From positions 124,001 to 188,000 of the forward strand of contig NZ_CANLGU010000007.1 of assembly GCF_947490405.1 (NCBI RefSeq): DNA of 64,000 nt, written 5' to 3'. Numbering within the stretch: position 1 is the stretch's first letter; each line of letters begins with the position of its first letter. This stretch comes from an uncultured Algibacter sp. (lineage in GTDB: Bacteria > Bacteroidota > Bacteroidia > Flavobacteriales > Flavobacteriaceae). Shown piece by piece: positions 8,900 through 53,341 of this stretch. The translations under genes and the position numbers were made by a program. The notes under the pieces were generated by a model. It ran no database searches and was not told the origin of the DNA. It worked only from the letters and a program-made list of their open reading frames with translations.

Positions 8900-8907
8900 A
8901 TATGTCT

Positions 8908-8934
8908 GTCATTCCTGCGAAGGCAGGAATCTCA
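8908..8934. repeat. Short palindromic repeat, GTCATTCC...GGAATCTC type
   Basis: GTCATTCCTGC-GAA-GGCAGGAATCTC. The stem ATTCCTGC/GCAGGAAT has a tight GAAG-type loop, flanked by an unpaired GTC and CTC. Related copies occur at 11603, 24034, 24381 (inverted) and 53231. Confidence 0.8.
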
Positions 8935-11587: not shown

Positions 11588-11602
11588 TGAATTATAGTAT
11601 TT

Positions 11603-11627
11603 GTCATTTCCGTGAAGACGGGAATCT
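11603..11627. repeat. Short palindromic repeat, GTCATTTCC...GGAATCT type
   Basis: GTCATTTCCGTGAAGACGGGAATCT, a diverged member of the 8908 family, placed just upstream of the THX gene start. Confidence 0.7.
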
Positions 11628-17445: not shown

Positions 17446-17570
17446 GGCGTTTCCCCTCGCTGGCACCTACAAGGTTAGAAAAAAACCTTGCAGGTTTGCT
17501 CACGGTCGGGCTATCCGCTATATCTTTTTTTCATGCTTCAAAAAAGGATGCCGCTTCTATCCCTAACGCG
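17446..17570 (+). repeat. Dispersed GCGTTA-ended repeat (copy 5) in the trpFB-trpA spacer
   Basis: Ends GGCGTTTCCC and ATCCCTAACGCG. Internal modules are GGTCGGGCT, CCGCTATATCTTTTTTTC and AAAAAAGGATGCCGCTTC. It also contains ACCTACAAGGTT...AACCTTGCAGGT, a hairpin related to the perfect palindrome at 17596-17642. It is transcribed within the trp operon. Confidence 0.75.
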
Positions 17571-17595
17571 CCACTGTTATGTGCTTACGCTTATG

Positions 17596-22614: not shown

Positions 22615-24021
22615 TTAAATATCTTCTGCTAATGTAATAGCTTTAGTTAACGCGCCTAGTTTATTGTACACTTCTTGCAACTCGTTTTCTTGGTTTGATT
22701 TTGATACCAATCCTGCACCTGCTTGCCAGAATAATTTATAGTCTTTACTTAAAAATGTACGAATCATAATCGCGTGGTTAAAATTACCATGAAAGTCCAT
22801 AAACCCAATGGCGCCACCGTAAAATGCGCGACTTGTTTTTTCGTAATCTTCTATAAGTTGCATGGCGCGATGTTTTGGTGCGCCGCTTAATGTTCCTGCG
22901 GGAAACGTATCTGCCACAACTTGCATGGTTGAGGTGGTATCGTGCTTTTGCCCTGTTACTTTGCTTACCAAATGTATAACATGAGAAAAGAACTGTACTT
23001 CACGATACGTACCAACGTTTACTTGGCTACCGTGGCGACTTAAATCGTTTCTGGCCAAATCTACTAGCATAACGTGTTCTGCATTTTCTTTATCGTCGTT
23101 TTTTAAATTTTCGGCTAAAATTTCATCTTTTTCATAATCTCCAGTTCTTTTATAGGTTCCTGCAATAGGGTGAATTTCGGCTAAACCATCTTCTACAATT
23201 AATTGTGCTTCGGGCGAGCTTCCAAATATTTTAAAATCGCCATAATCAAAATAAAATAGGTACGGCGATGGGTTTATACTTCTAAGAGCGCGGTAAATAT
23301 TAAATTCGTCGCCAGTAAATTCTTGAGTAAAACGTCTAGATAATACCAATTGAAATACATCTCCACGTTGGCAATGTTTTCTGGCTACTTCTACGTGAGC
23401 TCTGAATTCATCATCAGTTAAATTAGAGGTTATATCGCCTTTAGCGTTAAACTTATAGGAAGCAAAATTTTGAACATTGATGAGTGTATCAATCTCATCA
23501 ATATTATTTTCTACACCTTCATAACAATGCGCAAAAATATAGGCTTCGTTTTTAAAGTGATTAATGGCAATAATGTTTTGATACACCGCATAATACATAT
23601 CTGGAATAACTACAGAATTGTCTTTTTTACTTATTTGTATATCTTCAAAATAGCGTACCGCATCATAAGCCGTATACCCAAAAATACCGTTGTTAATGAA
23701 CTTGAAATTTTCTTCGGATTTGGTATCGAACTTTTTTGTGAAGTTATAAATCTCATCAACTACGTTTACGTCTTCTGTTATTTCTATAGATGTAGCACTG
23801 CCATCAGGGAACGTTTCTGAAATCACTTCGTTTTCAACCTTTATTGTAGCAATTGGATTGAAACAGATGTACGAGAAGTTTTTTTGACTTTTATGATAAT
23901 CACCACTTTCTAAAAGTATACTATTGGGGTATTTGTCTCGTATTTTGTAATATACGGTAACAGGTGTAATGGTATCTGTTAAGATGCGCTTGTGGTGCGT
24001 GTATAAGCTGTATTTATTCAT
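22615..24021 (-). CDS. trpE: Anthranilate synthase component I
   Basis: 468 residues. Converts chorismate and ammonia to anthranilate. The tryptophan feedback-binding motif LLES (SILLESGDYH near residue 35) is intact. The chorismate-binding domain shows FQLVLSRRF, NPSPYLFYFD, GSSPEAQL, PIAGTYKRTGD, LVDLARNDLSRHG, PAGTLSGAPKHRAMQLI and YGGAIGFMD. The sense start ATG at 24021 is only 12 nt from the left arm of the palindrome that brackets the GIY-YIG gene, so trpE has lost its original upstream context and sits about 400 nt from the attenuator. Confidence 0.96.
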   Translation of the reverse strand: MNKYSLYTHHKRILTDTITPVTVYYKIRDKYPNSILLESGDYHKSQKNFSYICFNPIATIKVENEVISETFPDGSATSIEITEDVNVVDEIYNFTKKFDTKSEENFKFINNGIFGYTAYDAVRYFEDIQISKKDNSVVIPDMYYAVYQNIIAINHFKNEAYIFAHCYEGVENNIDEIDTLINVQNFASYKFNAKGDITSNLTDDEFRAHVEVARKHCQRGDVFQLVLSRRFTQEFTGDEFNIYRALRSINPSPYLFYFDYGDFKIFGSSPEAQLIVEDGLAEIHPIAGTYKRTGDYEKDEILAENLKNDDKENAEHVMLVDLARNDLSRHGSQVNVGTYREVQFFSHVIHLVSKVTGQKHDTTSTMQVVADTFPAGTLSGAPKHRAMQLIEDYEKTSRAFYGGAIGFMDFHGNFNHAIMIRTFLSKDYKLFWQAGAGLVSKSNQENELQEVYNKLGALTKAITLAEDI

Positions 24022-24032
24022 AAATTAGTTAC

Positions 24033-24056
24033 TGTCTTTTCCGCGAAGGCGGAAAT
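24033..24056 (+). repeat. Palindromic repeat, left boundary of the GIY-YIG unit
   Basis: TGTCTTTTCCGCGAAGGCGG plus AAAT: stem TTCCGC/GCGGAA with a GAAG-type loop. It is the same family as 8908 and 53231, in forward orientation. Confidence 0.85.
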
Positions 24057-24068
24057 TTTTTTATTTAA

Positions 24069-24365
24069 TTATATAAAGAAATGTGATAAATCGTTCCAAT
24101 CTGGATTTAAATCCTTAATAAGGTTTATTTTCCATTGCCTATTCCATTTCTTTATTTGCTTTTCTCTTTTTATTGCTTCTCCCGCAGTTTCAAAATTTTC
24201 ATAATAAACTAATATATCTAGTCTATGTTTATTTGCAAACCCTCTGGTGTGTTTCTTTTTATATTGAGTTATTCTCTGTTTTATATTTCCTGTCATTCCT
24301 ATATACAAAATTCCATCTTTTTTATTTGTTATAATGTATATGTAATATGTTTTGTCATTAAACAT
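24069..24365 (-). CDS. Single-domain GIY-YIG endonuclease
   Basis: 98 residues, essentially one GIY-YIG nuclease domain. The GIY-equivalent is YIY (8-10) and the second strand is LYIGMTG (YIG at 21-23). The helix arginine is Arg31 (KQRITQY) and the metal-binding Glu is Glu68 in IKREKQIKKWNR; the family end LIKDLNPDWNDL is present. Known GIY-YIG enzymes cut DNA in homing, repair or restriction; here the target is unknown. It is bracketed by inverted copies of a palindromic repeat (24033-24056 and 24381-24404) and sits between the trp attenuator and trpE in the same direction. It would therefore be transcribed only when the attenuator is read through, unless it has its own promoter. Confidence 0.9.
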   Translation of the reverse strand: MFNDKTYYIYIITNKKDGILYIGMTGNIKQRITQYKKKHTRGFANKHRLDILVYYENFETAGEAIKREKQIKKWNRQWKINLIKDLNPDWNDLSHFFI

Positions 24366-24380
24366 TAATCAAACCATATG

Positions 24381-24404
24381 GTTTCCGCCTTCGCGGAAAT
24401 GACA
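24381..24404 (-). repeat. Palindromic repeat, right boundary of the GIY-YIG unit
   Basis: On the minus strand it reads GTGTCATTTCCGCGAAGGCG plus GAAA, the inverted counterpart of 24033-24056. Confidence 0.85.
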
Positions 24405-24416
24405 CTATTTTTACAC

Positions 24417-24450
24417 AAAAAAGGCTTGTCGTGAATGACAAGCCTTTTGG
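24417..24450 (-). terminator. trp attenuator (intrinsic terminator)
   Basis: On the minus strand AAAAGGCTTGTC, loop ATTCAC, GACAAGCCTTTT, then a T run (12-bp stem). It lies 44 nt after the leader-peptide stop. The leader contains TTCGTGAA (24484-24491 region), seven bases of which can pair with TTCACGA in the loop and right arm of this hairpin. That would give a possible antiterminator, as in classical attenuation. Confidence 0.8.
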
Positions 24451-32325: not shown

Positions 32326-32331
32326 AGAATG

Positions 32332-32723
32332 TGGAGTCGGAGAGAATCGAACTCTCGTCCAAACAAGTAACCAAAGAGCTTTCTACACGTTTAGTCTATT
32401 CTTAGGTTTTCGATTGTAAACTGGTTAAAGACAACCTACTTACAACTTATCTTCTTTAGTTTCAAAAGAGCATCAAAGCGCTACCCAATCTATATTGACA
32501 TTTACGATGCCTCAAAATAGAACGCCGTCAATCAAGGCTTTCCGGAGACATAAAGCTTGCTCACCTTGTGAGCCTAGGCTAATTCTACTATAATTCGAAT
32601 TATGCAGCTAAAGCGTAGTTATTCTCGCCGTTTAAAATTTGGTCTAGCCTTTTACGTGTTTCAATGCCATTACACGACGTGCTTACCGTTCAATTAATCT
32701 CGCTGTCAAAACCAGTCGACCCC
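32332..32723 (-). ncRNA. ssrA: tmRNA
   Basis: Transfer-messenger RNA of about 392 nt. The 5' end GGGGTCG pairs with CGACTCC at the 3' end to form the acceptor stem, and the T arm GAGAG-TTCGATT-CTCTC is clear. The tag frame GGC GAG AAT AAC TAC GCT TTA GCT GCA TAA encodes GENNYALAA, the tag typical of Bacteroidota. Several hairpins between tag and T arm fit the pseudoknots. The terminal CCA appears not to be encoded. The 5' end is placed by the acceptor pairing. Confidence 0.95.
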
Positions 32724-41252: not shown

Positions 41253-41355
41253 TTATGTAAAATTTAAGCCGTAAAGTTACAAAAAGGAGTTTTAACGTTT
41301 TTGATAAATTAGCACTGGCTTTACTAAAATATATTTGGTGTTGGCAGATTTACCC

Positions 41356-41435
41356 GCGTTAGGGATTGAAGCGGCATCCTTTTTTGTTTTTCTCAAAAAA
41401 GATATAGCGTAAAGCCCGACCCTAAGGGTAACGCC
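41356..41435 (-). repeat. Dispersed GCGTTA-ended repeat (copy 8, subtype A, compact)
   Basis: In its own orientation: GGGCGTTACCCTTAGGGTCG, GGCTTTACGCTATATCTTTT, AAAAAGGATGCCGCTTC, AATCCCTAACGCGGG. At 80 bp it is the most compact and complete subtype A copy and best defines the core. Confidence 0.8.
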
Positions 41436-52985: not shown

Positions 52986-53341
52986 AAACTAAACAAGGTT
53001 CTTTTTGTTGACTGTGGTAAATGTATTATTTAAAACTTGAAAGTAAAAACTAAACGTAAAAAGTTTGGAATAGTTGTGATTGAAAAATTTAATTTTCTAT
53101 CTGCTGTTTTCTGGATTTTTTTAACATTTAATAAGTTGGTTTATAATTATGGCACGATTATTACGTTATAGGATTTAGTTTAAATAAAAACTAACTCCGA
53201 GATAATTTTATCGAGGTTTCAGTTGAATTTGTCATTCCCGTGAAAACGGGAATCTAAAATAAAAGATTTTTGTTTTTTACTTATAACAAAAACAAAGAGC
53301 CTTTATTTATCTTTGATTCTAAATTTAAAATTAATCCAAGA
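52986..53341. other. Gene-poor spacer upstream of the TPR gene
   Basis: 356 bases of AT-rich sequence between divergent genes. It holds the palindromic repeat at 53231-53256 and an imperfect hairpin (CTCCGAGATAATTTTATCGAGG near 53194-53215). No ORF is credible. Confidence 0.5.
53231..53256. repeat. Short palindromic repeat, GTCATTCCC...GGGAATCT type
   Basis: GTCATTCCCG-TGAAAA-CGGGAATCTA: an 8-bp stem of the same family as 8908 and 24033. Confidence 0.8.

Follow-up and report, generated by a model that had tools for sequence, protein, structure and literature searches.

The 98-residue GIY-YIG nuclease gene that lies between the trp leader and trpE in an uncultured Algibacter sp. is probably the core of a minimal mobile element, in which a small nuclease gene is carried between outward-facing copies of its presumed recognition hairpin. 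This hairpin joins a GTCA head to a lineage-specific stem-loop, and the unit would be a counterpart of REP/RAYT elements with an enzyme most likely of the Ssn kind. The repeat class is tied to the nuclease family by position, covariation, and copy number, and empty sites show that the units come and go. The evidence comes from the window (the whole stretch of 64,000 nucleotides analyzed, positions 124,001 to 188,000 of contig NZ_CANLGU010000007.1), from the rest of the source genome (G000), and from near and distant relatives.

A nuclease gene between inverted hairpins at the trp leader

Read along the minus strand, the order of features is trp leader, terminator hairpin, hairpin arm, GIY-YIG gene, inverted arm, and trpE. 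The Bacteroid-trp leader (RF01692; 24437 to 24564, minus strand) was recognized by Rfam at 59.7 bits, and the terminator hairpin (24419-24448) stands 14 nt from the inserted unit of 372 bp (24033 to 24404, minus strand). The upstream arm of the unit, TGTCATTTCCGCGAAGGCGGAAA (24382 to 24404, minus strand), has an outward TGTCA head followed by the stem-loop TTTCCGC-GAAG-GCGGAAA, and the downstream arm, TGTCTTTTCCGCGAAGGCGGAAA (24033 to 24055, plus strand), is an inverted copy with an outward TGTC head and the same stem. The two arms have 1 difference in 23 nt, and as single-stranded DNA they fold with z scores of -4.4 (upstream) and -3.3 (downstream). Between them lies the nuclease gene (24069 to 24365, minus strand), present in the list of open reading frames (ORFs) and matched by Pfam (PF01541, E value 7.3e-17); it is the only ORF of at least 60 amino acids inside the unit, where no DDE-type transposase was found. 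trpE (22615 to 24021, minus strand) follows 11 nt downstream. The first-pass annotation had described a nuclease of 98 residues bracketed by inverted palindromes and inserted close to both the trp attenuator and trpE; its coordinates were right, and the arms, the ORF, and the Rfam leader all agree with that description.

The suggested tie of the nuclease to tryptophan starvation is one of position only. The terminator hairpin contains TGTCATTC (GGCTTGTCATTCACGACAAGCC), the letters of the repeat head, and also does so in relatives that have no unit, perhaps by coincidence. Other RNAs in the window are two Flavo-1 RNAs (17500-17582, minus strand, and 41348-41425, plus strand) and a tmRNA gene (32329-32723, minus strand).

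The protein consists of a catalytic domain alone: Pfam gives only GIY-YIG and an overlapping T5orf172 match, and no separate DNA-binding domain or NUMOD was recognized in its 98 residues by Pfam or, apart from sub-threshold matches, by NCBIfam. In an alignment of 18 relatives, Y10, Y21, R31, E68, and N87 do not vary, and all five are intact in the window copy; H35, nearly invariant in the aligned relatives, is Y in the window copy and in its sister copy (genome G004). By analogy with I-TevI-type enzymes, these would be catalytic positions. The earlier description of an apparently intact active site holds for five of these residues and not for H35, where the replacement may lower the activity of the window copy. 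By sequence profile, on which the likeness is based, the top solved-structure matches were the UPF0213 proteins BH0048 and EF2693 (PDB 1zg2 and 1ywl; E values 3e-8 and 8e-7), which their entries name hypothetical.

Occupied and empty sites

trpE was found in 43 of 60 genomes, and the best 30 of these 43 loci were examined. A GIY-YIG sequence stood upstream of trpE in only 2 of the 30, the source genome and G004, which alone share the whole unit; eight other genomes of the genus have the trp site without it. The terminator was recognized at 26 of the 30 loci, and the distance from it to the trpE match was 13 to 71 nt in 24 of them and 401 nt in the same 2 genomes. The trp-site unit is an insertion, since only the source genome and G004 have it among the 30 trpE loci examined; the comparison of trp leaders proposed in the first-pass annotation yielded empty sites at 24 of the 26 readable loci. 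No target-site duplication was definable by eye at the trp site or at the second site described below (L006), and the occupied trp spacer is ~10 nt longer than the unit plus the nearest empty spacers.

The source genome has 11 GIY-YIG matches, 8 of which are small stand-alone genes. Besides the window gene, two of these, L005 (TGTCATTCCTGCGCAGGCAGGAATCCA) and L006 (TTGTCATTCCGCACTTGATGCGGAATCCA), are enclosed by exact inverted repeats that have other stems; the remaining five have no exact bracketing repeats, and other repeat sequences stand near several of them. Repeats make up the flanks of the L005 unit, which makes it unusable for empty-site comparison. G000 and G004 have the L006 unit; it is missing in G007, G009, and G003, where the matched flanks are 10, 13, and 26 nt apart, respectively, and hold no such hairpin; its site had no match in G001 and G006. 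At the same site, between AAGTTTGAAG/CTTCAAACTT-type repeats, G008 (L097) and G005 (L101) have a 23S_rRNA_IVP gene (PF05635; the G005 protein matches with an E value of 1e-30), and G002 has a remnant of it. The L006 site in these relatives is used by another kind of small gene-plus-repeat element.

Lone palindromes occur at the trp site of other relatives. In G002 (L025), TTTCGCCTAAGCGGAAA, close to the window hairpin, stands between the terminator and trpE with no nuclease, and G001, G006, and G026 have the palindrome TTCTGA..TTTCAGAA at this site. Such palindromes are what one would expect if a classical homing endonuclease had entered a hairpin copy already present there, and allele-to-allele copying would also fit the low synonymous divergence reported below. 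However, the empty trp sites of G007, G008, G009, G005, and G015, like the empty L006 sites, are free of such hairpins, and a separate DNA-binding domain was not recognized in the protein, so that we regard classical homing as quite unlikely and retain the reading of a unit that brings its hairpins with it.

Between the two trp-site copies of the nuclease gene, 9 differences fall in 51.8 synonymous sites, compared with 141 in 280.7 for the adjacent trpE (P = 8e-6). Because synonymous divergence between the nuclease copies is far below that of the adjacent gene, these sequences suggest that the unit was transferred after the species split. The low value is not general, since the GIY-YIG pair L002/L080 has a trpE-like dS of 0.83; several further pairs are low too. 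Nonsynonymous changes make up 6 of the 15 differences between the trp-site copies, fewer than neutral (P = 3e-4), and the nuclease is under purifying selection. In 60-nt blocks, the source genome and G004 are 92 to 98% identical over the unit, 87% in the block of the upstream arm, and 78 to 95% in trpE; the two blocks before the unit, which hold most of the leader, are 97 to 98% identical. Elsewhere, the GIY-YIG genes L008 (G000) and L086 (G008), from different species, are identical over 297 nt within a 944-nt match that is 94.7% identical as a whole, as if recently transferred.

These patterns of descent could also arise if the nuclease and its hairpins formed a stationary regulator of, or barrier to, incoming single-stranded DNA, a role attributed to Neisseria Ssn, and spread passively by natural transformation and homologous recombination rather than by the enzyme's own cutting. 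Interspecies recombination would fit the low synonymous divergence of the trp-site copies relative to trpE, purifying selection would fit a host or self-maintenance function, and G007 keeps repeats without a close nuclease. However, passive transfer alone leaves unexplained both the insertion of whole units at repeat-free sites (L006 in G007, G009, and G003) and the outward-arm bracketing of the nuclease genes. We consider the stationary alternative unlikely and favor a unit that moves.

Bracketing across relatives and phyla

We sampled 131 intact GIY-YIG genes, 54 from the source and nearby genomes and 77 from other species, and counted an inverted repeat across a gene as strong at a score of 14 or more. 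The nearby set comprised 57 loci and took in part of the 90 matched places, those left out being mostly weak; 8 of its 62 hits were dropped as not intact. For the other-species set, 84,980 species genomes were scanned and at least 555 relatives confirmed, of which the best 80 were taken and 3 were not intact. Strong inverted repeats bracket 61 of the 131 genes, the remaining 70 having none, and the first-pass expectation that palindromes would flank homologues elsewhere is borne out. In the nearby set, 20 of 54 genes pass, versus 2.8% of 2,856 swapped flank pairs; in the other-species set (the best 80 of at least 555), 41 of 77 pass, versus 17.9% of 5,852 swaps. The latter control is high because hairpins are shared across phyla, and neighboring ORFs are therefore the better control. 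At the same loci, 5 of 268 neighboring ORFs pass, and all five are further GIY-YIG genes (screening for GIY-YIG covered the passing ORFs only); in two further neighbor sets, 0 of 31 and 0 of 60 are bracketed.

By record title, the passing loci include Flavobacteriia, Ignavibacteria, Nitrospirae, Omnitrophota, Chloroflexi, several Patescibacteria, Deltaproteobacteria, and Alpha- and Betaproteobacteria, although single phylum assignments may be wrong because many passing loci are metagenome bins. The architecture of hairpin, nuclease, and hairpin is general and occurs in several bacterial phyla.

The hairpin repeat

GTCA lies toward the outer end of the upstream arm in 49 of the 61 bracketed genes and at the inner end in none of the 61. 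Outward heads on both sides were found at 71 of 131 GIY-YIG genes versus 2 of 255 neighbors, and inward heads at 17 of 131 versus 5 of 255; among the 70 genes without a strong inverted repeat, the counts were 23 outward on both sides and 15 inward. The similarity of the arms tracks that of the nucleases (Mantel r = 0.57, 0 of 9,999 permutations, n = 44 after dereplication), a covariation that may come from shared ancestry of whole units in addition to recognition.

Hairpins of this architecture are also dispersed away from nuclease genes. The pattern GTCATTCCN{4,26}GGAATC yielded 46 dispersed GTCATTCC-hairpin matches in the source genome (control, 0), and GTCATTCC-type repeats occur in 32 of 60 relatives searched. 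The inner triplet is self-complementary in 38 of the 46, and self-pairing is seen in 11 of 19 distinct inner sequences, versus 24 of 342 cross pairs. Since distinct inner triplets pair with themselves far above cross pairs, the hairpin persists through changes in its sequence.

In the window, hairpins with a TGTCA head number 4, including the upstream arm of the unit, compared with a mean of 1.1 (range, 0 to 3) in ten Markov controls and 0 to 2 for six control heads. This excess is modest alone, and the strong evidence comes from the genome-wide counts. Across the 3.69-Mb genome, the exact pattern TTCCGCN4GCGGAA occurs 3 times, twice at the trp-site unit (reversed control pattern, 0). With a single copy away from the gene, the exact TTCCGC hairpin was rejected as an abundant repeat. 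The first-pass annotation had the repeat family scattered through the window; this does not hold for the exact hairpin, and the scattered copies are three hairpins that share its architecture and have other stems. These are a dispersed repeat without nuclease, TGTCATTCCTGCGAAGGCAGGAAT (8907 to 8930, plus strand), found in the genome and window pattern counts; a degenerate one, TGTCATTTCCGTGAAGACGGGAAT (11602 to 11625, plus strand), from the window count; and the copy at 53230.

Most repeat copies are singlets. Close pairs are mostly heads-out, with 13 heads-out and 2 heads-in in G000, G005, G006, G007, and G008; among the matches listed, G004 has two further heads-out pairs and G001, G002, and G009 have none. 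Both heads-in pairs have a spacing of 120 bp and lie ~1.5 kb from the L005 unit or its G008 counterpart. As single-stranded DNA, the heads-out pair L213 forms one long hairpin (z score, -11.8), and the pair L214, made of two different stems, folds more weakly (z score, -5.1). L212 and L214 are two-stem pairs, combining TGCGAA(G/A)GCA with GCACTTGATGC, and recur in several genomes of the genus.

The arms might simply be intrinsic terminators that insulate a small gene, and on the plus strand a run of T does stand after the arm at 24037-24054. Read in the sense direction, both arms lack such a run, and terminators would not predict the conserved outward GTCA head, the covariation of stem with lineage, or heads-out pairs without a gene. 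We rejected intrinsic terminators, a most improbable explanation, on the missing sense-strand T run and the conserved outward head. The hairpins are better read as the presumed recognition sites of a mobile unit.

Nuclease or Y1 transposase

REPINs have the same layout (PMC3116915, PMC3686654), so the hairpins could be ordinary REP/REPIN elements that a Y1 (RAYT) transposase moves, with nuclease genes fallen between them by chance. Y1 matches do occur in 25 of 60 relatives, with up to 14 in G015. Against such a mover, no intact Y1/RAYT transposase was found in the source genome, which has one partial match with a stop, and G007, G006, G014, and G017 have no Y1 match, yet carry 20, 7, 11, and 7 repeat copies, respectively. 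The head is GTCA rather than GT(A/G)G, and bracketing is found at GIY-YIG genes and absent at other neighboring ORFs. Y1/RAYT as the mover in the source genome is thus disfavored by its only, broken Y1 fragment, and the explanation as a whole is very unlikely.

The number of repeats correlates with how many matches a genome has to the window nuclease, at a Spearman coefficient of 0.62 across 60 genomes (0.54 when each genus is represented once, n = 41), and not clearly with Y1 matches, at 0.23 (0.16 with one per genus); these correlations are descriptive because the genomes are related. The association has exceptions in both directions. G007, with 20 repeats (three with the L006 stem), has only distant relatives of the nuclease (33 to 35% identity), and nuclease relatives without any GTCATTCC copy were found in G046 (four) and in G003, G012, and G018 (one each); the hairpins of G046 may have other stems.

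Apparent movement of dispersed copies

Dispersed copies appear, with caution, to move too. An insertion of ~121 bp in the window (53186 to 53306, plus strand), which holds the hairpin repeat at 53230-53253, is present in 3 of 10 genomes of the genus (G000, G004, and G009) and absent in the other seven. The flanks abut exactly at the empty sites of G007, G001, G006, and G008, the break is slightly shifted in G005 and G002, and G003 was read from the printed sequence. For the repeat pairs L211, L212, and L213, which lie in labile intergenic stretches, no clean empty site was found, in the case of L211 and L212 because unrelated sequence stands there in other genomes; the L213 pair is common to G000, G004, and G007 and is replaced in seven others with no clean junction. 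In L120 (G004), the orthologue of 53230-53253, ~50 nt are inserted in the hairpin loop, between the stem halves.

Proposed mechanism

We propose that the nuclease would bind the folded GTCA-headed hairpin in single-stranded DNA, either on the lagging strand or in DNA taken up, and would nick there. Host repair or recombination might then copy the unit, together with related hairpin singlets and pairs, to other places and other cells. Judging from the enzyme class, copying would have to use host functions because a hydrolytic nuclease alone cannot join DNA. Whether GIY-YIG nucleases drive a whole class of minimal elements parallel to RAYT/REPIN, with units that enter repeat-free sites and, in several phyla, mobilize in trans both singlets and heads-out pairs, is a more tentative proposition, which we hold to be possible rather than probable. 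The window nuclease's own hairpin, with its 3 genomic copies, and the repeats of G007 count against strict mobilization in trans, and the two-stem pairs L212 and L214 are not predicted by simple one-enzyme-one-stem action. Of the first-pass picture of a minimal homing-type element, the unit of nuclease plus palindrome with related dispersed repeats survives and is well supported, because empty sites exist and palindromes flank homologues elsewhere. Cutting of the palindrome, copying by homing, and movement of repeats in trans are more conjectural; the protein has no recognizable homing-type DNA-binding module, and its own hairpin has one further copy in the genome.

Relation to known systems

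REP/RAYT systems (PMC3116915, PMC3686654) resemble the GIY-YIG units in having a conserved 5′ head and a variable palindrome, inverted copies around an enzyme gene, inverted doublets (REPINs), enzyme-specific repeat classes, and repeats without their enzyme. In REP elements the tetranucleotide GT(A/G)G stands 5′ of the palindrome (PMC3686654), and the RAYT enzyme is an HUH/Y1 transposase, whereas units of the window type have a GIY-YIG hydrolytic nuclease and a GTCA head; because both enzyme and head differ, the GIY-YIG unit is not a member of REP/RAYT. With I-TevI-type homing endonucleases the trp-site unit shares the catalytic domain and the occurrence of occupied and empty sites; unlike them, it has no recognized NUMOD or DNA-binding module, no intron or intein, and has flanking hairpins. 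A 2006 survey of the GIY-YIG superfamily (PMC1564403) lists, in its accessible text, 12 "unorthodox" homing-type members without NUMODs, among which small genes like the window nuclease might have been assigned; the terms COG2827, UPF0213, single-domain, and stand-alone are absent from that text. Among the matches listed from the titles and abstract openings of open-licence literature, none linked GIY-YIG nucleases to REP-like repeats.

The association offers a testable origin for GTCATTCC-type repeats, which are unaccounted for by an intact transposase of the REP kind in the source genome, and points to two unrelated enzyme folds converging on the REP/REPIN design. If the nucleases are specific for single strands and for stems, the stem classes would amount to a catalogue of new cutting specificities.

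The window nuclease probably belongs to the Ssn family, site-specific single-strand GIY-YIG nucleases that were reportedly described from Neisseria in Nature Communications in 2025 and are said to modulate transformation. Ssn proteins resemble the window nuclease in being single-domain GIY-YIG enzymes of ~100 amino acids with a genome-wide repeat as presumed target. A cognate repeat both beside the gene and dispersed, as in Ssn, is found for the family as a whole; for the stem of the window nuclease, with its 3 exact copies, the finding is weak. Whereas Ssn is reportedly characterized as a modulator of transformation, the gene here lies within an inverted pair, with insertion and absence at its sites. 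On the repeat side, the comparison was through the Neisseria dRS3 pattern alone, published as ATTCCCN8GGGAAT (PMC2911385). This pattern matches an arm of 10 of the 61 bracketed units and 6 of the 46 repeats of the source genome, and the link to Ssn is supported by these matches.
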